DNA of 64,000 nt, taken from positions 1 through 64,000 of the forward strand of contig JANXAL010000045.1 in assembly GCA_025062325.1 (NCBI GenBank). Reading direction: 5' to 3'. Source of the stretch: Roseiflexus sp. GTDB taxonomy: Bacteria > Chloroflexota > Chloroflexia > Chloroflexales > Roseiflexaceae. The position numbers were made by a program, and so were the translations under genes. Shown here piece after piece: positions 4,211-61,265 of the stretch. Every line of letters begins with the position of its first letter. Position 1 is the first letter of the stretch. Under the pieces are notes generated by a model. It ran no database searches and had not been told where the DNA came from. It was given only the letters and a program-made list of their open reading frames with translations.

Positions 4211-4746
4211 GCAGGCGAGAGGCGAGGGACGTAAGACAAGAGGCGAAAGGAGAGATGCGACGCGCATTCGGTCATTCGCTTCTCTTCGATTCTTCGCTTC
4301 CTTGCTTGCTGACAGGAGAAAGGCGCGCGTTGGCGGGTGGAAAGGCGGAGGGTGTCCGTTGCGCGTTAAGCGTGGGAAGACAAGAGGAAGATGAGATAAC
4401 ATAGAAGGTTATCGATTGAACCTCCTAACCCCTAACTCTTAACAAGTATAGATTTCCCCGGCAAGCCCTTACGTTGCATCGCCCGTTTTGAGCGTCAGGA
4501 TGCGTAAACTCCCCCTTCTCCCCTTGTGGGAGAAGGGGGTAGGGGGGATGAGGGGAACAAGGGCGTCAGGACGCGGCAAATCCGCTTCGCACGCCAAAAA
4601 GCCTACATTTGAGAGCTTCGCCCCCACCCCCGTGTGCGGAGGGCGCAGCGGGGGAGAAGGGGGCAAGGGGGATGTGGAGAAAACAGGCGTCAGGACGCGG
4701 CAAATCTCATATCGTGCCAAAAAATCTATCCCTTAACCCCCAACCC
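4211..4746. repeat. Intergenic composite repeat and heptad-like spacer
   Basis: No gene. The first part (4211-4260) is a degenerate GAGGCGA-type heptad. From about 4440 to 4738 there are two sets of the dispersed composite repeat seen at 267-760. A perfect 12-bp hairpin, CCCCCTTCTCCC against GGGAGAAGGGGG with loop CTTGT, lies at 4511-4539. It sits between two convergent genes (AEC transporter and a minus-strand operon), so the hairpin might also help end transcription. Confidence 0.7.
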
Positions 4747-11018: not shown

Positions 11019-11580
11019 CTGCTGTATCCTAAAGCCCTTTTTTCCCCCTCATCCCCCCTCTCAAGTGTAGGCTTTTTGGTGTGCGAAGCGGATTTGCTGC
11101 ATCCTGACGCCCTTTTCCCCCTCATCCCCCCGCCCCCTTCTCCCACTAGGGGAGAAGGGGGAGTTAGGGCGTCCTAATGCCTGAAACGGGCGATGCCGAG
11201 TAAGGGCTTGCCGAAAACGCTCCACTTGTGAGCTTTTCCCCACCTCCTCACAAATGGAGCGTTTTTGAGGTGCGATGGATGTGCGCTGCGCCCTGACGCT
11301 CTTTGTTCCCCTTCATCTCCGGCCCCCTTCTCCCACCCCCCTGCGCCCCCTGCGTGCGGAGGATTGGGGGGAGAAGGGGGAGATGGGGCATCCTAACGCT
11401 CAAAACTGGCAATGCAACGTAAGGGCTCGCAAAAAATCTACCCTTGTGAGGGAAGGGAGCCGGGGGATAAGGGAGAACAGGCGTTGGGATGCGGAAAACG
11501 CGCTGCGCATCCGGAAACTCTACCCTAGAGAGCCTCACCCTCTGCAAGGAGAGTTTCAGTGCTCTTCTGTGAACCGAAAA
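11019..11580. repeat. Dispersed composite repeat, two copies, inverted orientation
   Basis: Two successive sets of the same modules as at 267-760, here mostly in the opposite orientation (GTGCGAAGCGGATTTGC near 11081-11097). Hairpins CCCCCTTCTCCC / GGGGAGAAGGGGG lie near 11129-11161 and 11323-11381. No coding sequence is supported. Confidence 0.7.
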
Positions 11581-26625: not shown

Positions 26626-26628
26626 TGA

Positions 26629-26844
26629 CTACAGCGAAACAGCAATGTACTCGGCAAAAGAATGAGGCTCGGGAATGGGCAGGTTATCTTCGAGTAATCC
26701 CCGAACGTGCATCTCGATGGCCTCGTGCATATTGCGCGTGACCTCTTCGCGGGTCTTGCCAGTTGCGATGCAGCCGGGCAAATCCGGTGAGTAGGCCGAG
26801 TAGTTGCCATTGGCTTTTTCGACAACGATCAGAAAGCGATACAT
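26629..26844 (-). CDS. hicB: HicB antitoxin (short form)
   Basis: 71 residues with the HicB core YRFLIVVEKANGNYSAYSPD, LPGCIATGKTREE and a short helix; no DNA-binding domain is attached. It should neutralise the HicA encoded 2 bases upstream. This is the only hicAB pair in the window in which both genes are intact. Confidence 0.88.
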   Translation of the reverse strand: MYRFLIVVEKANGNYSAYSPDLPGCIATGKTREEVTRNMHEAIEMHVRGLLEDNLPIPEPHSFAEYIAVSL

Positions 26845-26846
26845 CT

Positions 26847-27053
26847 CTACCTCCCGCCTTTCCCGGATTTCGGCAACTGCGCTTGCTTCAAAATGCTGTT
26901 GAGTGTACCCGGCGCCAGATCGTCATTAGGATGACCAGCGATCGTTACACGTCCCGGTTTGACAGGATGCTTGTATTGCCGATGACTGCCTTTTGTGGCA
27001 ACCAGATACCAGCCATCCTCTTCAATCAACCTGATCACATCACGAACCTTCAT
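26847..27053 (-). CDS. hicA: HicA toxin (mRNA interferase), intact
   Basis: 68 residues, normal length. The fold is a double-stranded-RNA-binding-like domain with VIRLIEEDGWYLVATKGSHR; the His of GSH is the expected catalytic residue, followed by YKHPVKPGRVTIAGHP. HicA cleaves mRNA to arrest growth when HicB is lost. Cotranscribed with hicB from an extended -10 promoter at 27106-27114. Confidence 0.9.
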   Translation of the reverse strand: MKVRDVIRLIEEDGWYLVATKGSHRQYKHPVKPGRVTIAGHPNDDLAPGTLNSILKQAQLPKSGKGGR

Positions 27054-27065
27054 CGGCGTTTGGGC

Positions 27066-27389
27066 TCACCTTAAGTGGCTGGCTCTGACCGGGGATACAA
27101 ACACTATTTTAGCACAAACTGAAGGCGCACTAGAATGATCGTGCGCGGCGGTGAAATAGCGCTCGAGTCGATGATACGTCTTCACCGAAGTGCGCGTGAT
27201 GTTCTCCGCCTTGAGGATCAGCGTTTTGACGGCGGCTGGCGCGGCAATAATCGCGTTAGCGACGTTAACGTCCGTAAACCAGGCTGACGTAACCAGGACA
27301 TATTCCTGTGCAGCGCAGACATCGTGGATGAGCAGCGCGATATCGAACGGGCGTCCAGGCTTATTGAAGTAGACCCGTATCGCGGGCAT
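27066..27389 (-). pseudogene. Fragment resembling a phospholipase-D-like domain
   Basis: An open frame of 107 residues starts MPAIRVYFNKPGRPFDIALL and contains YVLVTSAWFTDVNVANAI, like the first strand and helix of PLD-superfamily nucleases. It has no HxK motif and stops where the hicA promoter begins. I take it as a truncated remnant left by insertion of the hicAB pair; it could instead be a small unknown gene. Confidence 0.35.
27106..27114 (-). promoter_or_regulatory. Extended -10 promoter for the intact hicAB pair
   Basis: Minus-strand TGCTAAAAT fits TGnTAnAAT, 53 bases before the hicA start. Confidence 0.45.
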
Positions 27390-27481
27390 CGGAATCCCCT
27401 CAGTGTTGAAGCGGCGCAGGTGGAGTGTAGCACGTGCGAGGGGCGATGAGAAGCGCAGGAAATTGCTCGAACGATCTATTC

Positions 27482-27895
27482 TTAACGAGCGAGACTCTCA
27501 CGGGACCCAATATATTCAAGCACCGCCTGGGTTATCAGCCCTGAACGACTCTCACCGTGTTCACTCGCATATTTATCCATCAGATGTAATACACGCTCCG
27601 GCAACGTAATATTGACCCTGCGCGTTGTACCCGATAATTTTGTAACATCAACTGTAACGAATGCCCAGATCCCTCCGGCATAATCGGAATTACTTTGATG
27701 CAATTCAACCGGTTTTGGCGTTGGGATAGGCTCGCCATCTGCTAATAAGCCTTCCAGATGGCACTCAATGGCTTCAACGGCTTCTTGCAACGCTTCATCG
27801 AGCGCTTCACCTGCGCTGAAGCAACCAGGCAAATCAGGCACAGTAACGCCATAATCACTTTCAGGGTCCTTATGGACGACAACAGGGTAACGCAT
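27482..27895 (-). CDS. hicB: HicB antitoxin with ribbon-helix-helix domain
   Basis: 137 residues. The N-terminal HicB domain has VVVHKDPESDYGVTVPDLPG and CFSAGEALDEALQEAVEAIE; the C-terminus has RRVNITLPERVLHLMDKYAS, a CopG-type DNA-binding segment. It is complete, but the partner toxin just upstream is damaged, so this antitoxin may be maintained for other reasons, such as protection against related HicA toxins. Confidence 0.88.
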   Translation of the reverse strand: MRYPVVVHKDPESDYGVTVPDLPGCFSAGEALDEALQEAVEAIECHLEGLLADGEPIPTPKPVELHQSNSDYAGGIWAFVTVDVTKLSGTTRRVNITLPERVLHLMDKYASEHGESRSGLITQAVLEYIGSRESLAR

Positions 27896-35495: not shown

Positions 35496-36610
35496 GGCGA
35501 GAGGCGAGAGGCGCGAGAGATGAGGGGTTGCAGATAGAGACATTGCGTCGCAACATCTCCACAAGGCGTGAAGAGTTAGAGGAAGTGTGAAGGTTGAAGG
35601 CGGGAACGGTACAGACGGGAAGTTTGCGGGCACTGGCTAGGAACGCCTCCGACCCGTAAGGTCTCCATTGCGGATCACGCTCCGCAATGGAATGTCACCA
35701 GCGGAACAGCCTTCGGCTGAGGTTCGCAACGTAGCTTGACTTCGAGGATCTTGGGGTAAAGGCCGGACGAGCGCCCTGATGGACGCCTTCAGAGGGACAG
35801 CATTGAGGTGTGCGTCTCCATGGATTGCCCAAAACGGGGGTTCAGGGGTGGCCTCCGAGATGATGGTGAAATGATTCCGGCAGGCGCCAGCGTTTGGCGC
35901 CCAGCCACATTGTAGGGGCGCCCTGTGTAGGCGCCCTCATAAGTGTAACGTTTTGTGAGTGCGATGGATGTTTTCCGCATCCTGACGCCCTTTTCCCCTC
36001 ATCCCCCCGCCCTCTCCTCCCACCCTCACAAGTGCATTGATAGCAATGAATAAATGTTTTTCGCGTCCTGATGCCCTTTTCCCCCTTATCCCCCCACCCC
36101 CTTCTCTCACAAGGGGAGCAGGGGGTGGTTGCATATCTTGACGACCAGAACGGGCGATGCAATGGAAGGGGGTGACCAAAAAAATCTACACCTGTGAGCT
36201 TCTCCCACCAGGGGAGAAGGGGGAGATGGGGCGTTCTGATGCTCACAACGGGCAATGCAACCTAGGAGCGTGCTGGAAAAATCTACCCCGTGAGCCGTGG
36301 GCGCTCCGGAGGTAACGCGCATACTGCTCGCGCTTCCGCGAGAAGTGTAAACGGTCACGACAATGGCTCTCCGCGCGTGCGTGTAACGGCATTTGACGCA
36401 ATCGTGCACAATTCGACGAGATGCACTGCCGTTCAAACAAAGGTGTACAATCTACCATCGATGACTGGGCGCTGAAGAGTCTTTGCACCTTCGCGCCTTT
36501 GTGTGAACCGATTGGAACAGTGCTCGAGCGAACGGGGCGCGAAGAGGGCAAGCCATCATCAACAGCTTCGCGCTAAAGGTCTTTTCGCTTTTGTGCGAAC
36601 TTGTTTTGAA
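35496..36610. repeat. 1.1-kb gene-free spacer of mixed repeats
   Basis: No coding sequence is supported. Heptad GAGGCGA-type words (35498-35520) and GAAGGTTGAAGG words (35588-35602) come first. A perfect 11-bp hairpin, TCCATTGCGGA / TCCGCAATGGA, lies at 35664-35691. From about 35930 to 36300 are two or three sets of the dispersed composite repeat, inverted relative to 4440-4738. Near 36480-36605 are 'ccttcgcgcctttgtgtgaac' pieces like those near 815 and 54440. Confidence 0.7.
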
Positions 36611-42293: not shown

Positions 42294-42535
42294 TACGAGA
42301 ACGTATATCTGTTACGTATCTGTGCATCCCTATCCTAACCCTTGACAGGTCTAGATTTTTTGGGGAACGACAGAGGTTTGCCGTGTCCTGAGGACCTTTT
42401 TTCCCCTCATCCCCCCGCCCTCTTCCTCACACGTGTAGCATTTTGAGGTGCGATGGATGTTTGCCGCGTCCTGACGCCCAAAACGGGCGATGCAAGGCGC
42501 AGGCTTGTCAGAAAAGACCATACCCTTGAGCCATC
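42294..42535. repeat. Dispersed composite repeat between convergent genes
   Basis: One set of the composite repeat in inverted orientation (42345-42535): 'ttttttcccctcatccccccgccctc', GGTGCGATGGATGTTTGCCG, 'gcgtcctgacgcccaaaacgggcgatgc'. Nothing coding. Confidence 0.65.
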
Positions 42536-49534: not shown

Positions 49535-49888
49535 GGGCGATCCTTCTCTGCTACAGCGCGTCGTACAACCCCCAAATTATAGAAGCGACTCACGACGCAG
49601 GCAAGTTATGCTGGCAACAAATCGCTCATACGTGCATTGATCATTCCAATCCCGGCGACCGCGTCTGATACGCTGGTGCGCTCCAAATCGACGACAGAAT
49701 ACGTTTACTATTATGAGCGCACAGGCTCCGCATGCTCTCGTTGTCGGTACGCCGCGTCCTGAACATCCAGTCCTGGGCACCACCGATCGCCGCCGCGCTG
49801 GAGCGATCCGAGATGGATGGACAAAGCCTGTCTTCTCCTTGCTCACAGGAGCTTGCCCGGCATTCGCACAAAGCAGAGAGGCAACGCC
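49535..49888. other. Gene-free spacer
   Basis: No convincing coding region, hairpin or repeat was seen between the tricorn start and the first decayed solute-binding gene. Short frames here lack coding character. Confidence 0.5.
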
Positions 49889-50213
49889 ATCCAACATTTG
49901 TGGATCATCCTGACGCTCTGGATAATGCTCCTCGCAGCGTGCCATGCGCCGCAGTCATCAGACAGCGCAACTTCAGTTCCTGGAACGACGCCGACAACGC
50001 CCAATCTCAATCCGGTCGTAGTCGCCACACCTGAACCGCAGCCAGCGCCGCCCACACCGTCACCGTGACATTATGCGCGCGGGCGAATCTGCCACGCACC
50101 GACTCGCTCGCACCCGCCGCGAACTGCATCCCGACATCTTCGTCACACCGAGGAAACCTCATTGCGCATCTGACGCTCGATCTGAGCATAGCGCACAAGG
50201 CGGCGCCGCACCC
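49889..50213 (+). pseudogene. Heavily deleted copy of the double solute-binding lipoprotein gene
   Basis: Pieces align in order with the intact gene at 51594-54380. At 49889 the start codon is ATC, followed by codons for QHLWIILTLWIMLLAAC (the signal and lipobox). Next comes the linker NLNPVVVATPEPQ (near 50000-50040), then RRELHPDIFV (50118-50147, matching REQRPDIFV), then LDLSIAHK (about 50177-50200, matching LDLSIVHK). Everything between these pieces has been deleted, so the gene is dead. Confidence 0.75.
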
Positions 50214-50329
50214 TGCATTCGCCAGTTAGCGCTCCGAACTCGCTCACCTCTTTCTGCCGCGATGTGAGGGGGCGACCTCCTAACATGGACTTTACGCTGG
50301 TTTTGCTATTCTTGTTTCAGTACCATTGA

Positions 50330-51100
50330 TGAGCAGGTTACGATCTCATTTGCGGTGTGGGAATATGAGCGCGACGCCTGCCAGACGCTGGCGGATCGAT
50401 TTATGACTGAGCATCCCAGCATCAAAGAGGCGCTCGTGCTGCTCAATGACATCATGAGCGCGCCGGGCAGCGAGGGGCCAACCAGTCCGCGTTACCGCAA
50501 TTGGCGCGTTGAGTCGGGCCGTGTCCTCGGTGACCAGCGACCCGAAGACGAATGTGCATCAGGCGCTGGCGAACGCGCAACGTCAGCTCCAGGAATCAAT
50601 TGCACAGCGGGAACTGACGCCGACGCCCAAACCGAATCTCGATCCGGTCGTGGTCGCCACGCCGGAGCCGCAAGAAGCGCCGATTGGCGCCACGACCGTG
50701 AGGTTTGGCCTGTACGGGTATGATCCGGCTCAAACACGCCGTATTGTGTGCGCCTTCCACAATCAGCGCCCGGATATTTTCATGCAGCTAAAACCATTCG
50801 TCGGGATGTGGTTCGGGTCTGCCGAGTTGTTTCAGGAAGGGGCGCGGCTGCGCCGATCAGTCCAGGCGACAACGTATCGCCGCCATTTGCGCCGGTAGCG
50901 CCAACCGCCGCGCCGCTGACGCCGGTCGAGCGCGGGATTCGGGCAGCGCCGCTGCCGGTCGGCGGCGCGGGCATGCCGTCGAGTAAGTTGCTCCTGCTGA
51001 CGATGGCGTATGTCGAGTGCCTGAACCGACCTGATGGCAAGCCTGCGATATGCGCAACACAGGTGGATCAGGAATATCAGAGGTTTAGCGTTGAAAACCG
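50330..51100 (+). pseudogene. Second decayed copy of the double solute-binding lipoprotein gene
   Basis: Blocks match the intact gene in order: VWEYERDACQTLADRF near 50355 (domain 1 start), then SDPKTNVHQALANAQRQLQE, the linker TPTPKPNLDPVVVATPEPQE, GLYGYDPAQ and NQRPDIFMQLKPF, GMWFGSAELFQEGA, LTPVERGIRAAPLPVG and finally ECLNRPDGKPAIC. The central parts of both domains are missing and the frame changes more than once. It has no signal peptide. This and the copy before it sit head-to-tail with the intact gene. Confidence 0.8.
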
Positions 51101-51593
51101 ATCCAGCCCTGGAACTTTTTCGACAGCGCAGTCGTCCTGAGTCAGGAGCGCCCACTGCTGTAGCAATGTCTCATCTTGGTATCATTGCGAGTCGACGGTA
51201 TTTGACTATCATGATGTCGGGAGTGAATCAGCGCGCCTTTATCTTTATACAGCATACGGCGAACGCATACATATACGAACCGCGCCACCTTCGGGTGATC
51301 AGTGCTATGTCAGAGTTTTCCTTCAAAGCAGCAGCCGGTGACGAACCGGGCGCCTCCCTAAATGACCCTGCATTGTCGTCATTAGCAAGGAGTGCAAGCG
51401 ATGCTTCTGGCCAGCGTAGCGCGGCTTCGGCGAGCGTCTGGCGGACGTCTCGCTTTGCGTCGCCCCGCGAGAGTGCGGCATAGCAGCTCGTTAGCCGACC
51501 TCGATTGGATAGGCCCTGAGTCCCAATCCTCCCTCTTGCTGGCGGCAGTCGCAGGAGGTGCGTCATATTCGGGGCAAAAAGAAAGGCAAACTC
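51101..51593. other. Gene-free spacer before the intact lipoprotein gene
   Basis: Nothing is recognised in this ~490 base stretch except AAAGG 8 bases before the downstream ATG. It may contain the promoter, but no clear -35/-10 pair was seen. Confidence 0.45.
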
Positions 51594-54380
51594 ATGCAAC
51601 GTTTGTGGATACTACTGACCCTCTGGGCGGCGCTACTTGCGTCGTGCGGTGCGCCGCGACCATCGAGCGATGCAACGACGGCGCCTGGTGCGACGCCAAC
51701 AAGAGGGAGCGAGACGGTCACGATTTCATTTGCAGTGTGGGAATACGAACGCGATGCCTACCAGACCCTGGCAGATCGGTTTACGACTGAGCATCCTGAC
51801 ATTAAAGTAGTCCTTGTGTCACTCGATGACACGCTGGTGGACGAGTCCGGGAATTACGAATCGATCAATCCGCTCAATTTTCTGCGGCGGATCGTGTCAG
51901 CCGCCGATACGGCGCCCTCCTCATACTGGCTAACCCCTGAAGCGTTTGGCACGCCTCTGCTCCTCGACCTCAAGCCGCTGATGGATGCCGACCCATCGTT
52001 TCAACGCAACGACTTCCTTCCCGGCACGCTCGAGCGTTACACGGCGAAGGGCGGGATCTGGGCGCTGCCGCGCTCCTACAGCGTACCCCTGATCATCTAC
52101 AACCGCACCTTGTTCCAGAACGCCAATCTGCCTGAACCGCGCCCCGGCTGGACGTGGGACGATCTGCTGGCAGCCGCCGAGCGCCTAACCGAGCGCAGCG
52201 GTTCAACCATCCTCACTTATGGATTCCTGGAACCAAGCGGCGGTGCGCTGACGCTTATGAGCCTGCTCGAAAAGCAGGGAATTAACCCGCTAACGGCATC
52301 AGCAGCGGAAGTAGACCTCACAGCGCCAGAATACGTTGCGGCGCTTGAGCGCATCCAGGAGTGGCGCCGCACCGGCGTACTGATCGAACCGTATTCGCAC
52401 GGCGCTTCTGCCGAAGACCCCACACGTCTAGTGCGCGAAGGGCGGGTCGCTATATGGAGCGACATGTTCTACATCAGCAACGACGACGGATCGCCCTGGA
52501 CACCCGATTTTCCGGTCGGTCGCGCGCCGTTTCCGAAGGGTTCCTTCTACGATCCCTTCTTTAGCTCGACTGAAGGGTTCATCATCAGCGGCGGCACGGC
52601 GCATCCCGCTGCTGCATGGCGCTGGATCGAATGGCTCTCGCGCCAGCCGGTTGCCGAGGACCAGCAGAGTTTTGTTCCTTTCTCGCGTCTGCCTGCCCGG
52701 CAGTCGGTGGCGCAGCAGACGGAGTTTTGGAACAAACTCGACCCGCAGACTGCCGAGGCGTACCGCTGGGCGATAGCAAACAGCGGGACACTGCCAAGCT
52801 CGCAGTTCGATTATACCGTGATAAGTGCGTTGAGCCAGGCAGTTTCCAAAATCACCAGCGATCCGAAGGCAAATGTACGCCAGGTACTGGCAGACGCGCA
52901 ACGTCAGCTGCGGGAATCAATCGCGCAGCGTGAACTGACGCCAACGCCCAAGCCTAATCTTAATCCGGTAGTGGTTGCCACGCCGGAGCCGCAGGAAGCG
53001 CCAGTTGGCGCCACGACCGTGACGTTTGGCACGTATGGGTATGATCCGGCTCAAATGCGTCGTATTGCGCGCGCCTTCCGCGAACAACGCCCCGATATTT
53101 TCGTGCAGTTGAAGCAGTTTGAGTGGACTCCTGAGATGCAGGAGGCGACCGCTGCCACGCTGGCGCAGACCAACGACTGTTTCTTCTGGTTCGGTCCGCT
53201 CTCTCGCAACGACGAGGCGGCCCTGCTTGACCTGCGTCCGCTGATCGAGGCCGACCCCACCTTCCCGCGTGATGATATCTTCCCGGCGGCGCTGGCGCAG
53301 TACAGTCGTGAAGGACGCATCTATGGGCTGCCCTATTCGATCAACATGCGCACGCTGGTTTACAACCACGCTGCCTTCGAGGCGGCGGGCGTGCAACCGC
53401 CGCGCGCCGAGTGGAAGCCCAGCGATTTCCTGGCAGCGGCGCAGGCGCTCACCAGAGGCGAAGGGAACGATCAGCGATGGGGGTATGTACCGCTGGGAGG
53501 TCCGCAGGCTGATTTGCTTTTCTTCATCAGTCAGTTCGGCGCGCGTCTGGTGGTTGGCGAGGGCAAAGACCTGCGCCCGAACTATATCGATCCGAAGACG
53601 ATCGCTGCTATCCGCTGGTACCTCGACCTGAGCATAGTGCACAAGGTCTCGCCGCCGCTCAAGTTTTACTACAAGCGCGACGATGTGAGCGGTCAGGATC
53701 GTTCCTATGAGTTGGCCCAATCCGGTCGGGTCGGGATGTGGTTCGGGTATGCCGAGACATTCCAAGAAGGGGTTATCACTCAGCCGATTGCGCCGGAAGG
53801 CGGACCTGCGCTGCCAACTGCTGTGCCGCTGACGCCGGTCGAGCGCGACATCCGAGCGGCGCCGCTGCCGGTCGGCGCTGCCGGTGTGCCGCCAAGCGAG
53901 TTGTTCCTGCGCGGCCTCTTCATTTCGGCGCGGGCGCAGCAGCCACAGGCGTGCTGGGAATGGATTAAGTTCCTTTCCAGCGATACGTCCCTGATGTATA
54001 GCGACATGCCCGCCCGCCGCTCAATTGCACAGTCTGAGACATTTCTCAAACAGATCCCACCGGAGCGCGCCGCACAGTTCGAGGCTATTCGGGCAACCCT
54101 GGCCATCCCGTCGCAAAATGTCAACGACCAGAACGCCTTCTACGGTCAGTATTCCGACCCCTACTGGTTCTTCAAGGCGCTTAGCGCTGTTGTTGAGAAA
54201 GGCGCCAATCTCGAAAAGGAACTTGCTGAAGCACAGCGCTTTGCAACTGCTTTTGCCGAATGCATGAACCGCGCAAACGCACGAGCGCCAGCATGCGCCA
54301 AAGAGGTCGATCCGGACTACAAGGGGTTCAACGTCGAAGAGGAAGAGATGCGTCCGCTGCCTGCCGGTTATGCACCCTGA
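51594..54380 (+). CDS. Lipoprotein with two tandem extracellular solute-binding domains
   Basis: 928 residues. A signal peptide ends in the lipobox LLASC (Cys ~18). Domain 1 (about 38-440) begins VTISFAVWEYERDAYQTLAD and has GGIWALPRSYSVPLIIYNRT. A Pro-rich linker (TPTPKPNLNPVVVATPEP, ~447) leads to domain 2 (about 472-925), which opens TVTFGTYGYDPAQMRRIARA and contains EGRIYGLPYSINMRTLVYNH. Both belong to the sugar-binding family 1 of ABC transporters (SBP_bac_1). Normally one such domain works with MalF/MalG-type permeases, which are missing here; a HlyD-like adaptor, FtsX permease and ABC ATPase follow instead. It may sense or deliver a sugar-like ligand. Tandem decayed copies lie just upstream. 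Confidence 0.86.
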   Translation: MQRLWILLTLWAALLASCGAPRPSSDATTAPGATPTRGSETVTISFAVWEYERDAYQTLADRFTTEHPDIKVVLVSLDDTLVDESGNYESINPLNFLRRIVSAADTAPSSYWLTPEAFGTPLLLDLKPLMDADPSFQRNDFLPGTLERYTAKGGIWALPRSYSVPLIIYNRTLFQNANLPEPRPGWTWDDLLAAAERLTERSGSTILTYGFLEPSGGALTLMSLLEKQGINPLTASAAEVDLTAPEYVAALERIQEWRRTGVLIEPYSHGASAEDPTRLVREGRVAIWSDMFYISNDDGSPWTPDFPVGRAPFPKGSFYDPFFSSTEGFIISGGTAHPAAAWRWIEWLSRQPVAEDQQSFVPFSRLPARQSVAQQTEFWNKLDPQTAEAYRWAIANSGTLPSSQFDYTVISALSQAVSKITSDPKANVRQVLADAQRQLRESIAQRELTPTPKPNLNPVVVATPEPQEAPVGATTVTFGTYGYDPAQMRRIARAFREQRPDIFVQLKQFEWTPEMQEATAATLAQTNDCFFWFGPLSRNDEAALLDLRPLIEADPTFPRDDIFPAALAQYSREGRIYGLPYSINMRTLVYNHAAFEAAGVQPPRAEWKPSDFLAAAQALTRGEGNDQRWGYVPLGGPQADLLFFISQFGARLVVGEGKDLRPNYIDPKTIAAIRWYLDLSIVHKVSPPLKFYYKRDDVSGQDRSYELAQSGRVGMWFGYAETFQEGVITQPIAPEGGPALPTAVPLTPVERDIRAAPLPVGAAGVPPSELFLRGLFISARAQQPQACWEWIKFLSSDTSLMYSDMPARRSIAQSETFLKQIPPERAAQFEAIRATLAIPSQNVNDQNAFYGQYSDPYWFFKALSAVVEKGANLEKELAEAQRFATAFAECMNRANARAPACAKEVDPDYKGFNVEEEEMRPLPAGYAP

Positions 54381-54495: not shown

Positions 54496-56097
54496 ATGCG
54501 ATGGATGATGCGCTGGATCATATGGTGCTGCGTCGTGCTGCTGACCGCCTGTGGCACGACACAAGCGGCGCCAGAGCCGCCAACTCCCACTCCTCTCCCG
54601 CCCGACCCGGCGCTTGAACGCCCGACATACCGGGTGCAACGCGGTGTGATTGAACAGGTGGTCACGGTAACCGCCCGCGCAACGCCGGTTGACATGGTCC
54701 GGTTGGCGTTTCGGCGCGATGGGCGCGTGAATGTGGTGAACGTCCGCCGTGGCGATGTCGTCAAGCAGGGTGACATTCTGGCAGAACTCCAGCAGGAAGA
54801 GGCGCTCGACGAGTTGCGCCGCGCCGAGGATGATCTCGCGCAGGCGCGGCGTGACCTCGAGAGCGCGCGGCTAGCAAAAGAGAAACGGATCAAGGAGCGT
54901 GAGCTCGATGTCGAGCGCGCCAGGCGCGAACTCGAACGATTGCTGCCTGGCGGTGAGGCGGACCTGTTCGCAGAACTTCAAGAGCGCCTGGAAACGGCGC
55001 AGCGCGAGTTGCGCAGAACGCGCGACGACGCCTCGTGGTCGAAAACGTCGGCGGAGGAAGCGCTGCTCGACCGCGCCGAGGCTCTTTCCGACACGCAAAA
55101 AGCGTACAGCACCGCCTACTGGAACTGGAACTGGGTGCAGCGCTACGGCACCGATCCCGAAAATCCGTTCATCACGAACGAAGCAGGTGTGCGGGTCCCG
55201 AACCTTCTGACCGAAAAGCAAAAGGAAGAGTATCGCGTGAAATTAATCCAGGCGGAGCGTGCTTTGCGTGACGCCGAGCGTAACCTGGAGCAGGCGCAGC
55301 GCGCCCGCGATCGCGCGTATGAAGATGAGATCGTCCGTATTCGCGAGGCGGAGAAGAAAGTCGAAGAAGCGCAGCGTGCGCTTGATATGTTGCTCCAGGG
55401 AAAGAATAAAACCATTGAAGAGGCGCGGCTGGCGTTCGAACGGGCACAGGTGGCGCTGGAGGAGGCGCGGAACGAGACGCTCAACAGCGCCATCCGCGCC
55501 GTCGAGAACGCCGAGCGCGCACTAGAAAAAGCGCGCCGCCGCGTCAATGATGGACGTGTGATTGCACCGCAGAATGGAACCGTCTTGGCGGTCGCCATCG
55601 AACCTGGAGCGACCGTGACGGCATTCGAGCCGGTCATCGAAGTCGCCGATCCGTCGAACGTCGAGTTTGCTGCAACCCTAAGCCCACAGCAGATGCGGTT
55701 GCTCTCCGAAGGACAGAGCGTTGAAATTCGTCTGCTATCGCGCCCTGACCTGGCAATCCCCGGCGTTATCCGCCGTATGCCAGCGCCCTATGGATCAGGC
55801 GGAAGCGGCGCCGTGCAGGATCGTGATGCCACAACGCGCTTCCAGGTTGTTGATGCGCGCGGACAAACGTTCGAGGCGGGAGTGACTGTTGCGCGAGTCA
55901 GCATTGTGCTGGAGCGCAAAGAAAACGTCCTCTGGCTGCCGCCGGAAGCCATCCGCTCATTCGAGGGCCGCCGCTTCGTCATTCTGCGCGAGGGGGAACG
56001 TGAACGCCGCGTGCCGGTGCGGATCGGCATCGAAACTGAGGAGCGGGTCGAAATTCTCGAGGGACTGGACGAAGGCGACATCGTGGTTGGATCGTAG
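54496..56097 (+). CDS. Membrane-fusion (HlyD/MacA-type) adaptor lipoprotein
   Basis: 533 residues. Lipobox VLLTAC (Cys ~19), then the first half of a lipoyl-like domain (VVTVTARATPVDMVRLAFRR, with VVNVRRGDVVKQGDILAEL). A long coiled coil follows (about 95-350, with many Glu, Arg and Ala heptads), then the second half (GRVIAPQNGTVLAVAIEPGA) and beta-barrel segments to the end. Such adaptors link an ABC transporter of the MacB type to outer structures or substrates. Being lipid-anchored fits a monoderm-like envelope. The stop is one base from the permease start. Confidence 0.88.
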   Translation: MRWMMRWIIWCCVVLLTACGTTQAAPEPPTPTPLPPDPALERPTYRVQRGVIEQVVTVTARATPVDMVRLAFRRDGRVNVVNVRRGDVVKQGDILAELQQEEALDELRRAEDDLAQARRDLESARLAKEKRIKERELDVERARRELERLLPGGEADLFAELQERLETAQRELRRTRDDASWSKTSAEEALLDRAEALSDTQKAYSTAYWNWNWVQRYGTDPENPFITNEAGVRVPNLLTEKQKEEYRVKLIQAERALRDAERNLEQAQRARDRAYEDEIVRIREAEKKVEEAQRALDMLLQGKNKTIEEARLAFERAQVALEEARNETLNSAIRAVENAERALEKARRRVNDGRVIAPQNGTVLAVAIEPGATVTAFEPVIEVADPSNVEFAATLSPQQMRLLSEGQSVEIRLLSRPDLAIPGVIRRMPAPYGSGGSGAVQDRDATTRFQVVDARGQTFEAGVTVARVSIVLERKENVLWLPPEAIRSFEGRRFVILREGERERRVPVRIGIETEERVEILEGLDEGDIVVGS

Positions 56098-56098
56098 T

Positions 56099-58951
56099 AT
56101 GCGTCGGATGCTGGCTTTGCTTTCCGTCCTGACTGCAGCCTCCAAGCGCTTGCACGCCAACCTTGGGCTGGCGCTCTGCGCATGGCTGGCGGCGGTCACA
56201 GCCGTTGCGCTGGCGTCCGCTATTCCGGCATATGCTGAAGCAGCCAGCCTGCGTCTGCTGCAGGACGAAATTCGACAGCAGGAGGAACGTCAAGGACGCT
56301 CGCCGTTTGCGCTGCTGCTGCGGTATGTCGGCGCATGGAACACGCCGCTGGAGTGGGAGCGCGTTGCCCCGGCAGACGACTATCTGCGGCGCGAAGGCAT
56401 TCCTGGTCTCAATCTGCCGCTCAACAGCTTGGCGCGCCATGTCCGCACTGCGCCGCTCCGCGTGTTCCTGGCTGTCGATGGCGACGCAGTTTTTCTCAAA
56501 AATGCGCCGCTTGGCTTCATGAGCGGTCTTGATGATCGGATGCGGATCATCGATGGGCAGATGCCAGCATCGGCAGCGGATGGCGCTGTCTTGGACGTGA
56601 TGATCGCTCGCGCATTCGCCGATGAAGCTGGCGTGAATGTGGGCGATACGCTCACGATCATCGCTCCTGGCACACGCCCTGCAACGTTGCAGGCGCGCGT
56701 GGCGGCGATCTGGGAGCCGGTCAATCGCAACGATCCGGCGTGGTTCTTCCCACCCGACGCATTGAACGATCTGCTTCTCGTGTCGGAGGCGAGTTTCACC
56801 GGTCCTATCGCCAGGGCGCTGCGCAACGAGGTCGATCAGGCGCTCTGGTTCGTGCGGCTGAGCGGCGAAGGCATCACCAGCGCGCAAGTCGCGCCGCTCC
56901 TGAGCCGCGTAGAAAGTGTGCGCGTGCGCGTCAACGGTATCATCCCCGGGCTGCGGCTCGAACAGGGACCGTCGGAGGCGCTGCAACGCTATCAGGAGCG
57001 TGTGGCGACGTTGACGACCCAACTGTCCGTCTTCAGCGCGCCGATCCTGGCACTGACCCTCTACTTTGCGGCGCTGATCGCCGCACTGCTCGTGCGGCGT
57101 CAGAGCAGCGAGATTGCGCTCCTCAAGTCGCGCGGCGTAAGAAGCGCACAGATTCTGGGCATGTACCTGGTTGAATGGACAATCATCGGTGCGGCGGCGC
57201 TCGCGGTCGGATTGCCGCTAGGGCTTGCCTTCGCCTCAGTAATGAGCCGGGTGCGCTCATTCCTCGATGTCGATCTGTCAGTTCCCAGCGCCCCGCTGTC
57301 GCTTGGTGCGCAGAGCCTGACCTTTGCTCTGGTCGTCCTGGCGATTACCGTGGTTGCATCGTTGCTACCGGCGCTTGCAGCAACGCGCCGCACCCTAGTA
57401 GAGGAACAGCAACAAACGGCGCGCGCAGTACGCCCGCCCCTCTGGCAGCGCGCCTATCTCGATCTGTTGCTCCTCATCCCGGCAGCATACGGCATCTATC
57501 AACTGCAGACAGGTGGAGGACTGTTTCAGGGCAATGCGGATCCGTTCAGCAATCCGCTGCTGATAGCTACCCCGGCGCTCCTCTGTTTTGCCCTTGGTCT
57601 GCTGGCGCTGCGGCTTATCCCGCTGATCCTGGAAGGGCTGGCGCGACTGGCGACCATTCCGGCATGGGTTGCGCCGCTGGTCACGTTACGCGCGCTGGCA
57701 CGGCAGACCGACAGTTACCGCGGCGCGCTGCTCCTGCTCATCCTGACACTCAGCCTGGCAACGTACAGTTCCACCATGGCGGACACGCTCGATGGAGCGA
57801 TGCGGACGGAGCTGACATATCAGGTTGGCGCGATGACCCAACTCTTCGAGACCGGCGAGAGCGCCGAGCGTGGGCGCCCTAATCAGCCTGGCAGACCGCC
57901 GCAGCAATCGCGTCGCGATATTGATATTCGTGAAGAAGCGCGTTTCCTGTTTGTTCCAGTAAGCGAGCATCTCCAGGCGCCGGGCGTGCGGGCGGCTGCG
58001 CGGGTCGGGCGCTATGACGCTTTCGTCAATGTCGGTGCGAGTAACCGGCAGGCGCAGTTGATCGGGATTGATCGGACCGATTTTCCGAAGGTGATCACTC
58101 GGTTTGACCGCGCCTGGGGCGGCGGCGAGTCACTCGGCGGATTGATGAACCTGCTGGCGCGTTACCCGAATGGCGCACTCGTCAGCCGCGACCTGCTGGG
58201 CGAGGGTCTGCGAGTTGGCGATGCGCTGCCAGCCACGTTGCAGCTCTACGGCGATCAGCGCGAAGTGCGGTTCCGCATTGTCGCCGCCATCGATCTCTGG
58301 CCCGGTTTCTATCCCCAGGACGGACCGATTATCGTTGCCAACCTGAACTATATCTTCGACGAAATGGGCGGTCAGTACCCGTATGATGTCTGGATCGCCC
58401 GCGATCCGGCGATTCCCCTTGAGGAGGTGGTCGCCGGAGTGCGTGGGTTAGGCATCCCGGTGATTGATGTCCTCGACAGCGCAACGCTCATTGCTCGCGA
58501 ACAGGCTCGTCCGCAGCGTCAGGGATTGTTTGGCGTCCTGACCATCGGCTTTCTGACGGCTGGCGTATTAACGCTGCTCGGTTTTCTGGTTGCGGGATTC
58601 ATTACCGCACGCCGTCGGGCGATTGAGCTAGGTATGCTACGGGCGCTAGGGTTGAGCGGATCCGGAGTTGCGGCAGCGCTTGTGCTGGAACAACTGCTGC
58701 TGATTGGCGCTGGCCTGGCGGCTGGCAGCGGAATCGGCGCACTGGCGGCATTGTTGATCGTGCCCTTCATGCAGGTCGGTGTAGGACCGTATCCTGGCGT
58801 GCCTGCATACCCGCCGCGCCTAGCGTGGGAAAGTATGACGAGCATCTACGCGGCATTCGGCGTAACGCTCCTACTCTCGCTGCTGGCGCTTGGCGCATCA
58901 CTGGCGCGAATCCGGTTGTTCCAGGCGGTGAAACTGGGGGATGTGAACTGA
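56099..58951 (+). CDS. Large FtsX-type ABC permease (MacB-like)
   Basis: 950 residues. A first membrane helix (ANLGLALCAWLAAVTAVALA, ~20-40) is followed by a large extracytoplasmic MacB-like domain (to ~315), then a cluster of helices with VRRQSSEIALLKSRGVRSAQ, the cytoplasmic coupling loop of FtsX. A second half repeats the plan: helices near 455-560, a second external domain (~600-810) and a terminal three-helix FtsX bundle with ARRRAIELGMLRALGLSGSG. It therefore holds two permease halves in one chain and should pair with the two-ATPase fusion downstream. Start chosen at the ATG after the adaptor stop. Confidence 0.88.
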   Translation: MRRMLALLSVLTAASKRLHANLGLALCAWLAAVTAVALASAIPAYAEAASLRLLQDEIRQQEERQGRSPFALLLRYVGAWNTPLEWERVAPADDYLRREGIPGLNLPLNSLARHVRTAPLRVFLAVDGDAVFLKNAPLGFMSGLDDRMRIIDGQMPASAADGAVLDVMIARAFADEAGVNVGDTLTIIAPGTRPATLQARVAAIWEPVNRNDPAWFFPPDALNDLLLVSEASFTGPIARALRNEVDQALWFVRLSGEGITSAQVAPLLSRVESVRVRVNGIIPGLRLEQGPSEALQRYQERVATLTTQLSVFSAPILALTLYFAALIAALLVRRQSSEIALLKSRGVRSAQILGMYLVEWTIIGAAALAVGLPLGLAFASVMSRVRSFLDVDLSVPSAPLSLGAQSLTFALVVLAITVVASLLPALAATRRTLVEEQQQTARAVRPPLWQRAYLDLLLLIPAAYGIYQLQTGGGLFQGNADPFSNPLLIATPALLCFALGLLALRLIPLILEGLARLATIPAWVAPLVTLRALARQTDSYRGALLLLILTLSLATYSSTMADTLDGAMRTELTYQVGAMTQLFETGESAERGRPNQPGRPPQQSRRDIDIREEARFLFVPVSEHLQAPGVRAAARVGRYDAFVNVGASNRQAQLIGIDRTDFPKVITRFDRAWGGGESLGGLMNLLARYPNGALVSRDLLGEGLRVGDALPATLQLYGDQREVRFRIVAAIDLWPGFYPQDGPIIVANLNYIFDEMGGQYPYDVWIARDPAIPLEEVVAGVRGLGIPVIDVLDSATLIAREQARPQRQGLFGVLTIGFLTAGVLTLLGFLVAGFITARRRAIELGMLRALGLSGSGVAAALVLEQLLLIGAGLAAGSGIGALAALLIVPFMQVGVGPYPGVPAYPPRLAWESMTSIYAAFGVTLLLSLLALGASLARIRLFQAVKLGDVN

Positions 58952-59567: not shown

Positions 59568-61265
59568 ATGAACGCGACAGATCACATCATCCACGCCAGT
59601 GGTCTGGTTAAAATCTACAAAGTCGCTGAGCTGGAAGTGGTAGCGCTTCAGGGATTGGACCTGGAAGTGGCGCGGGGGGAGTTCCTGGCGCTGGTTGGTC
59701 CTTCCGGCTCGGGCAAATCTACGCTCCTCAACGCCATTGGCGGTCTTGATCGCCCATCCGCCGGACAGTTAATTGTCGACGGTCTTGATCTGACGGCGCT
59801 GACGCCTGCCCAATTGAGCGCCTACCGCCGCGAGCGCGTTGGCTTCATCTGGCAGCAGACGACTCGCAACCTGCTGCCGTACCTCAGCGCACGCGAAAAC
59901 ATCGAACTGCTGATGACCTTTGCCGGGCGCAGCGGGCGCGAACGACGCGCCTGGGCGAATGAGTTGCTGGAAGCGGTCGGCATGGCAGAGAAAGCCTCGA
60001 CTCCGGTCACGCAACTGTCCGGCGGTCAGCAGCAGCGCGTCGCCATTGCCTGCGCTTTGGCGAACCAACCGCGTATCCTGCTCGGCGACGAACCAACCGG
60101 TGAGTTGGACTGGGACACGGCGCAGCGGGTGCTGGCGCTGCTCCGCGATCTGCGGACGCGCTACGGTCTGACAATCGTCCTGGTCACGCACGATCCGCGC
60201 GTGGCAGAGCAGGCAGACCGGGTGATCGCCATCCGCGACGGGCGAACCAGCACCGAAACGCGCCGCGACGATGGGAAAACATCGGGAGATGAGGTATCGG
60301 CGGCGGCAGGACGGAGCGGGCGCGCGCGCGCCGCCGAGGAACTCGTCGTCGTTGATCGCGCCGGGCGCCTGCAGATCCCCAGCGATCAGCGCGCACTCGC
60401 GGGAATCGGGCGGCGCGCGCGCGTCGAACTCGTCGACGGCGGCATCCTCATTCGTCCGGTGGAAGATGATCGGATCGCCATTCCGACCGAGGAACCAACC
60501 AGTGACCAGCACCACCATTATCTCTATGAGGATGATGTATCCCCTGTGACCTCCCCGGCTGCGCCAGCCGCTCCGCTGATCGAAGTTAGAGGCGTAACGC
60601 GCGTCTTTGGCGCAGGCATTCGCGCTGTCCACGCCCTGCGCGGCGTTGATCTCACCATCGAACGGAGTGCGTTTGTCGCTCTCGTGGGTCCAAGCGGCAG
60701 CGGCAAGACGACGCTGTTGAACATCATCGGCGGGCTTGACCGCCCGACGAGCGGCAGCGTCGTTATCGAAGGGCGACGCATCGATCAGATGACTCCCGAT
60801 GAACTGACCCGTCTGCGGCGTCAGATGGGATTCATTTTTCAGAGTTTTGCGCTTTTGCCGACATCATCGGCCTTCGAGAACGTCGAACTGGCGCTGCGCC
60901 TGACGAGGCGAGCGCCCCGCCACCAATGGGACGCGCGCGTGCGTCGGGTGCTTGCTGCGGTTGGTCTGACTGACTGGACCAACCATCGCCCCTACGAGTT
61001 GAGCGGCGGTCAGCAGCAGCGTGTCGCCCTGGCGCGGGCGCTGGTCACCTCCCCGCGCATCATTCTGGCAGACGAGCCAACCGGCGATCTCGACAGCCGC
61101 ACCGGGAGACGAGTACTGACTATGCTGCGCACCCTCTGTGACCAGGAGGGAGTGACGCTGATCATGGCATCGCACGATCCAGCCGTGCTTGAGTTCGCCT
61201 CCTCGATCTATCACATGCGCGATGGCGTCATTATCGGGTGCGAGCAGGGAGTTACTGCTCGTTAA
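59568..61265 (+). CDS. Two-domain ABC ATPase fused around an AbrB-like segment
   Basis: 565 residues. The first ATPase (1-225) has Walker A GPSGSGKSTLLNAIGG, LSGGQQQRVAIACALA and ILLGDEPTGELDWD; the second (about 340-560) has GPSGSGKTTLLNIIGG, LSGGQQQRVALARALV and IILADEPTGDLDSR. Both are of the MacB/LolD type. Between them (~262-302) lies LVVVDRAGRLQIPSDQ followed by RARVELVDGGILIRPV, a SpoVT/AbrB-like swapped-hairpin pattern seen in antitoxins and regulators. It should power the double FtsX permease upstream. The ATG lies very near a TATAAC box; no ribosome site is seen, so it may be leaderless. Confidence 0.88.
   Translation: MNATDHIIHASGLVKIYKVAELEVVALQGLDLEVARGEFLALVGPSGSGKSTLLNAIGGLDRPSAGQLIVDGLDLTALTPAQLSAYRRERVGFIWQQTTRNLLPYLSARENIELLMTFAGRSGRERRAWANELLEAVGMAEKASTPVTQLSGGQQQRVAIACALANQPRILLGDEPTGELDWDTAQRVLALLRDLRTRYGLTIVLVTHDPRVAEQADRVIAIRDGRTSTETRRDDGKTSGDEVSAAAGRSGRARAAEELVVVDRAGRLQIPSDQRALAGIGRRARVELVDGGILIRPVEDDRIAIPTEEPTSDQHHHYLYEDDVSPVTSPAAPAAPLIEVRGVTRVFGAGIRAVHALRGVDLTIERSAFVALVGPSGSGKTTLLNIIGGLDRPTSGSVVIEGRRIDQMTPDELTRLRRQMGFIFQSFALLPTSSAFENVELALRLTRRAPRHQWDARVRRVLAAVGLTDWTNHRPYELSGGQQQRVALARALVTSPRIILADEPTGDLDSRTGRRVLTMLRTLCDQEGVTLIMASHDPAVLEFASSIYHMRDGVIIGCEQGVTAR

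Follow-up and report, generated by a model that had tools for sequence, protein, structure and literature searches.

The window, i.e. the whole stretch of 64,000 bp analysed here (positions 1 to 64,000 of contig JANXAL010000045.1 from Roseiflexus sp., contig C97 in our numbering), contains an intact gene for a lipoprotein with two solute-binding domains, preceded on the same strand by the remnants of two further copies and followed by the genes of an exporter (Table 1). The intact gene product has a lipobox-like start, LLASCGAP, as read from the sequence, and PF01547 from Pfam was matched in two stretches (E 7.7e-45). Both halves match oligosaccharide-binding proteins in sequence, and for the fold predicted with AlphaFold2 (mean pLDDT 78.4) the top Foldseek hits in the PDB were cycloalternan-, sucrose-, maltose- and trehalose-binding proteins, so that the lipoprotein possesses the SBP_bac_1 fold of the solute-binding proteins of type I importers (MalE-like). 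The family was called uncommon in a first-pass annotation of this DNA, which is borne out by its presence in 3 of 201 genomes in a sample of the phylum; within the own family of the host it occurs in 24 of 26 genomes. A divergent intact paralog with 52% identity is located elsewhere in the same genome (G000:C129:7013-9757, locus L034). No exporter gene lies within its 10-kb contig, and the gene beside it is, judging from its sequence, presumably sensor-kinase-like.

Table 1 Features of the receptor gene array, the adjoining exporter operon and the dispersed repeat in the window
Feature	Position	Strand	Evidence
Conserved 5′ flank of divergent Tricorn-like protease gene, left anchor of the array	49535..49605		identity to relatives
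Copy 1 block 1: signal peptide and first Thr-Pro linker	49890..49998	+	gene nt 2-110, nhmmer E 3.7e-18
Copy 1 block 2: second Thr-Pro linker and domain 2 start	49999..50143	+	gene nt 1359-1511, nhmmer E 2.7e-14
Copy 1 block 3	50176..50209	+	gene nt 2029-2062, nhmmer E 3.5e-5
Remains of copy 2 leader	50277..50327	+	leader alignment; similarity to G005 spacer
Copy 2 block 1	50329..50490	+	gene nt 116-280, nhmmer E 5.3e-41
Copy 2 block 2: inter-domain linker and domain 2 start	50492..50800	+	gene nt 1220-1528, nhmmer E 5.3e-90
Copy 2 block 3	50800..50997	+	gene nt 2137-2317, nhmmer E 2.4e-33
Copy 2 block 4: C-terminal end, upstream-paralog type	50997..51101	+	gene nt 2647-2751, nhmmer E 4.5e-18
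Spacer from copy 2 to intact copy, including leader of intact copy	51102..51593	+	match to G002 inter-copy spacer
Promoter-like pair TTGCGA-16-TATCAT	51185..51212	+	scan and leader alignment
Intact double solute-binding lipoprotein	51594..54380	+	928 aa, two SBP_bac_1 domains
HlyD/MacA-type adaptor	54496..56097	+	PF13437; TIGR01730 110.5 bits, cut-off 94.9
FtsX-type permease, start codon approximate	56102..58951	+	PF02687 57.7 bits, cut-off 25.5
Two MacB/LolD-type ATPase domains fused in one protein	59568..61265	+	NCBIfam LolD/DevA/FtsE models, two stretches each
Dispersed repeat sites	319-644, 4442-4704, 11056-11499, 35934-36295, 42373-42495	both	

Seven remnant blocks were found on the plus strand 5′ of the intact gene by self-comparison and with an nhmmer profile built from nine genus copies of the double binding protein gene. 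The blocks are collinear with the gene, with one coordinate reset between copy 1 and copy 2, and differ from the intact copy by 14–31%. About 290 nt of roughly 2780 are left of copy 1 (49890-50209; about 10%) and about 774 nt of roughly 2780 of copy 2 (50329-51101; about 28%). The first-pass annotation had described three head-to-tail copies in order of decay, the first reduced to four short blocks, the second retaining more and the third complete; this picture holds except that copy 1 consists of three blocks, with four in copy 2. In 50 shuffles of the region the profile gave a single match, at −6.2 bits, and nothing better than E 0.09 was found with it in the remainder of the window. No further remnants were detected in the own genome, where the remnant DNA matches the local gene and, weakly, the C129 paralog. 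As a control for gene-specific decay, 48 ORFs of the window were compared by tblastn with 24 intergenic gaps of at least 150 bases, which recovered the remnant of this gene, the other matches being two ORFs overlapping a dispersed repeat and one HicB-like partial sequence. The remnants have the properties of pseudogenes, being homologous to an intact relative, collinear with it and adjoining it, with the reading frame disrupted by large deletions. The stretch 50842-50900, which interrupts the match of copy 2 to the intact gene, is not a deletion: 50800-50997 aligns to relatives in one piece.

The locus was compared within the genus, namely in the genome of the window and five others (G001–G005). 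The gene order Tricorn-like protease, double binding protein(s), HlyD, FtsX, ATPase is kept as far as the contigs reach, the ATPase lying outside the stretches of G001, G002 and G005 and FtsX outside that of G005. A comparison of copy number, proposed in the first-pass annotation, revealed from one to three copies at the locus, with remnants in some genomes: one copy in G001, two in G002, two in G003 (with the frame of the upstream one stopped at codon 901, out of 914 that can be aligned), one copy and a 102-nt remnant in G004, three copies and a 99-nt remnant in G005, and one intact copy with two fossils in the window. The first copy of G005 comprises domain 1 only and is open for 476 codons. 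One copy in G002 and the second copy in G005 are each split over two contigs, and the order of these two arrays is partly derived from contig ends. The HlyD-adjacent (proximal) copy is intact in all six genomes, and a further copy or remnant lies upstream of it in five of the six. Upstream copies with domain 1 only and an open frame occur in two genera (L029:1519-2946 and L042:7362-8903), and these are possibly working single-domain proteins.

The flanks and spacers are conserved as well. The left anchor of the array is 76–84% identical to the corresponding position in G002, G004 and G005, and 72% to that in G003. The following region, 49606-49890, has no other match in the own genome and none in the fetched loci past about its first 32 bases, where the similarity of the left anchor to G004 continues. 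Of the copy 2 leader, positions 50277-50319 are 79% identical to the spacer preceding G005 copy 2. The spacer that separates copy 2 from the intact copy matches the one between the two G002 copies with 74.5% identity over 529 columns (E 2e-98); by its alignment it is an ordinary inter-copy spacer orthologous to that of G002, and since the match extends over the whole length, the window still retains the layout of the old array. A promoter scan gave two sites against 0.8 expected, of which the pair listed in Table 1 lies in the leader of the intact gene, and the block carrying it is common to the leaders of the copies. Internally repetitive spacers were observed at L026:8580-10240 and L032:11660-12570, with repeats common to Roseiflexus genomes.

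The nearest relative of copy 2 is not the adjacent intact gene. Its largest block, block 2, is 87.1% identical to G002 copy 1 and 85.2% to G005 copy 2, against 81.7% to its own intact gene. Block 3 is 85.4% identical to G002 copy 1 and 90.0% to G005 copy 2 (199 columns) and matches the own gene in two shorter pieces (86.0 and 81.6%), while block 4 is 82% identical to G002 copy 1 and 81% to the end of G005 copy 2, with no match to the own intact gene at E 1e-3. Block 1 matches both G002 copies about equally (86.7% for copy 1 and 86.5% for copy 2), so some gene conversion is possible. A tree of 753 columns unites copy 2 with G002 copy 1 and G005 copy 2 at a support of 100/100, and a tree pairing it with the neighbouring intact gene is rejected (p-AU 3.2e-7); when the divergent paralog and outgroups, i.e. 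long-branch rows, were added, the same clade was obtained with support falling to 85/80. Judged by these alignments, copy 2 represents, in decayed form, the ortholog of an upstream paralog whose frame is open in G002 and G005.

In the first-pass annotation, better matches of the blocks to other genes were named as evidence against tandem duplication followed by internal deletions. For copy 2 such matches literally exist, but they occupy the equivalent position in the same array, so that the date and genealogy have to be revised, copy 2 not being a duplicate of its present neighbour, while the tandem origin and the deletions stand. An origin of both remnants within this lineage, by recent tandem duplication of today's intact gene with subsequent deletions and the oldest duplicate most decayed, would likewise produce collinear tandem blocks with graded loss. 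This course of events is very unlikely, given that copy 2 is nearer to the upstream copies of G002 and G005 than to its neighbour, that the corresponding tree is rejected and that block 4 carries the C-terminal type of the upstream paralog.

For the first two blocks of copy 1, the truncated first copy of G005 is the best or nearly the best fit: the 3′ part of block 1 is 82% identical to it over 73 nt (the whole block is 69% identical to the own intact gene), and block 2 is 86% identical over 57 nt. Block 3 is 91% identical to the G004 copy, and the continuation of copy 1 matches the sequence directly past the G005 first copy. Copy 1, which with about 290 nt is too short for a tree or a proof, is most likely an ortholog of this truncated copy. 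An array of at least two genes, and probably three, is older than the species and decays separately in individual lineages.

A single duplication common to the whole genus was considered and rejected, as the G003 upstream copy groups with the G003 and G001 copies, and a tree uniting it with the copy 2 group is rejected (p 1.7e-69). The G003 pair is thus a separate duplication or has been converted; a test of its two copies as sisters gave p 0.23. Across 912 columns, 35 amino-acid differences are fixed between the upstream type (two sequences) and the proximal type (four), and the C-terminal tail, with 32 comparable columns, accounts for 12 of these; a control split among the proximal copies gave 11 fixed differences in all. 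The upstream-type copies stop directly past an NVEN motif, and the G003 upstream copy after NVE; the proximal copies of the genus have an acidic tail ending in Pro-Ala-Gly plus three or four further residues. Given the small number of sequences, a divergence of the tail between the paralog types is suggested as a lead only.

For G002 copy 1 and G005 copy 2, the dN/dS ratio is 0.17 over 924 codons; on this codon evidence, the upstream paralog is under purifying selection where it is open, namely in G002 and G005. Private changes at codon positions 1/2/3 number 13/23/22 in copy 2 of the window and 8/4/28 and 16/10/32 in its two open orthologs (Fisher p 0.004 for positions 1 and 2 against 3). Taken together, the ratio and the codon-position spectrum of copy 2 indicate that the gene worked in the ancestor and that the constraint was lost in the lineage of the window. 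The upstream copy of G003 is open yet relaxed, with 67/47/76 changes at the three positions versus 19/13/39 in its neighbour.

Selection on the remnants themselves, e.g. because the downstream gene uses them as a long regulatory leader or as a source of short peptides, would agree with the conservation of the spacer 51102-51593 and of the promoter-like block among species, and also with the persistence of the remnants, whereas young Salmonella pseudogenes vanish fast according to the part of PMC2916853 consulted. Such a role is improbable, since the conserved leader sits outside the remnant blocks, the private substitutions of copy 2 show no concentration at third positions and quite different pieces are retained in the relatives.

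The deletions were reconstructed with relatives, 10–19% different, standing in for the pre-deletion sequence. In copy 2, a 5′ deletion that begins in the promoter region and reaches about codon 40 has taken the promoter, the start codon and the signal peptide, and three more deletions, of about 940, 620 and 330 bp, lie inside the gene. The first-pass annotation had proposed looking for direct repeats at the deletion ends. By eye, one is present at the first deletion of copy 1, which fuses the two Thr-Pro linkers and has its junction in the short repeat ACGCCGAC found at both ends, and the three internal junctions of copy 2 share 0–3 bases, which is the chance level. Repeat-mediated deletion was therefore rejected as a general rule, a clear short repeat occurring at that one junction among those examined by eye. 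The deletions appear to be illegitimate, the first one in copy 1 perhaps having occurred at the short linker repeat.

The explanation to which we assign a probability of about 85% is that of an ancestral tandem array before the HlyD-FtsX-ATPase exporter operon, in which the upstream genes decayed in the lineage of the window and the proximal one remained intact. Several Roseiflexus species would have inherited the array, each gene with its own leader, from their common ancestor. In the lineage of the window, the two upstream genes would have lost selection and then suffered several large deletions, one of which removed the promoter and the start of copy 2, while the exporter-proximal gene would have been kept for its service to the exporter; in other lineages, the same upstream genes would have stayed intact, been truncated or disappeared. 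An artefact of the draft assembly, with collapsed or chimeric repeats, is very improbable, for although the genome is a 143-contig draft and the arrays break the G002 and G005 assemblies, the blocks are 14–31% off the intact gene, copy 2 is closer to paralogs of other species and the flanks and spacer show conservation where it is expected.

Read as a decayed ancestral array, the fossils are an unusually well documented case of ordinary gene birth and death. Duplicated genes, loss of constraint and removal by deletion are what the locus has in common with the birth-and-death evolution of tandem arrays and with bacterial pseudogene decay (Kuo and Ochman 2010; PMC2916853); in contrast to these, the remnants here have stayed collinear across a divergence at the species level, and in two relatives copy 2 has an open ortholog at the same place. 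The array members, being intact, truncated, fragmented or absent across sister species, form a natural gene-decay series, and because they are at different stages of decay, the sizes and ends of the deletions and the time of loss of selection become measurable.

The more novel part is the association of the double binding protein with an exporter. The context of the lipoprotein gene, not mentioned in the first-pass annotation, is that it heads a conserved operon of the MacAB/FtsX type consisting of genes for the HlyD adaptor, the FtsX permease and the ATPases. The operon shares with exporters of the MacAB/DevBCA/LolCDE type (FtsX fold) the combination of a HlyD/MacA adaptor, an FtsX permease and MacB/LolD-type ATPases; it differs from them in the conserved extra double solute-binding lipoprotein and in having the ATPase and the permease encoded by separate genes, not as a single MacB-like ATPase-permease polypeptide, with two ATPase domains fused.

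Exporter genes were present in the fetched stretch at 12 of 20 loci and, in a second set sharing two genomes (G009 and G002) with the first, at 20 of 30 loci; two of the 12, L036 and L043, have weak or distant matches only. No exporter gene was found at the other 8 and 10 loci, several of which are short contigs and others copies away from the exporter, such as the C129 paralog and the L059 series. The latter (L059:45-15208, from an Anaerolineae draft genome) contains at least four consecutive genes for double binding proteins and a terminal fragment, with no exporter genes found in that stretch. The exporter linkage itself reaches Anaerolineae, at about 30% identity, the binding protein gene there being sometimes located between two ATPase genes.

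Solute-binding proteins usually serve importers. The cognate PF00528 permeases expected for a MalE-like importer are not located nearby: none of the 38 matches to this family in the own genome lies on C97, and in G003, G009 and G012 the match nearest to the locus is 18–28 kb away. The conserved link of a sugar-binding-type receptor with an exporter runs counter to the importer rule and is directly testable. The likeliest reading is that the lipoprotein acts as an extracellular receptor for the exporter, and the ligand captured outside the cell would most likely be oligosaccharide-like. More tentatively, and with less than even odds, the lipoprotein may be a dedicated receptor of an FtsX-type exporter in Chloroflexota, recruited from an import-type part, with the array as a turnover zone of alternative receptors which are born, diverge (mainly in the C-terminal tail) and decay, the exporter-adjacent one being kept.

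Two substrate-binding domains in one polypeptide are also known from GlnPQ, where, according to the part of PMC8025302 consulted, tandem domains are fused to the membrane domain of an importer and bind amino acids. Unlike GlnPQ, the protein of the window is a separate lipoprotein with sugar-binding-type domains, encoded beside an exporter with no importer permease. Neither this array nor the combination of a double binding protein and an exporter is described in the parts of the literature that were searched.

Two minor observations concern the remainder of the window. A dispersed intergenic repeat of about 90–250 bp occurs in at least five places on both strands, its pieces being 70–90% alike. 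The small ORF at 27482-27895 on the minus strand, which we take from its sequence to be HicB-like, has a partial relative of 59 residues with 44% identity in the neighbouring gap 26626-27481.
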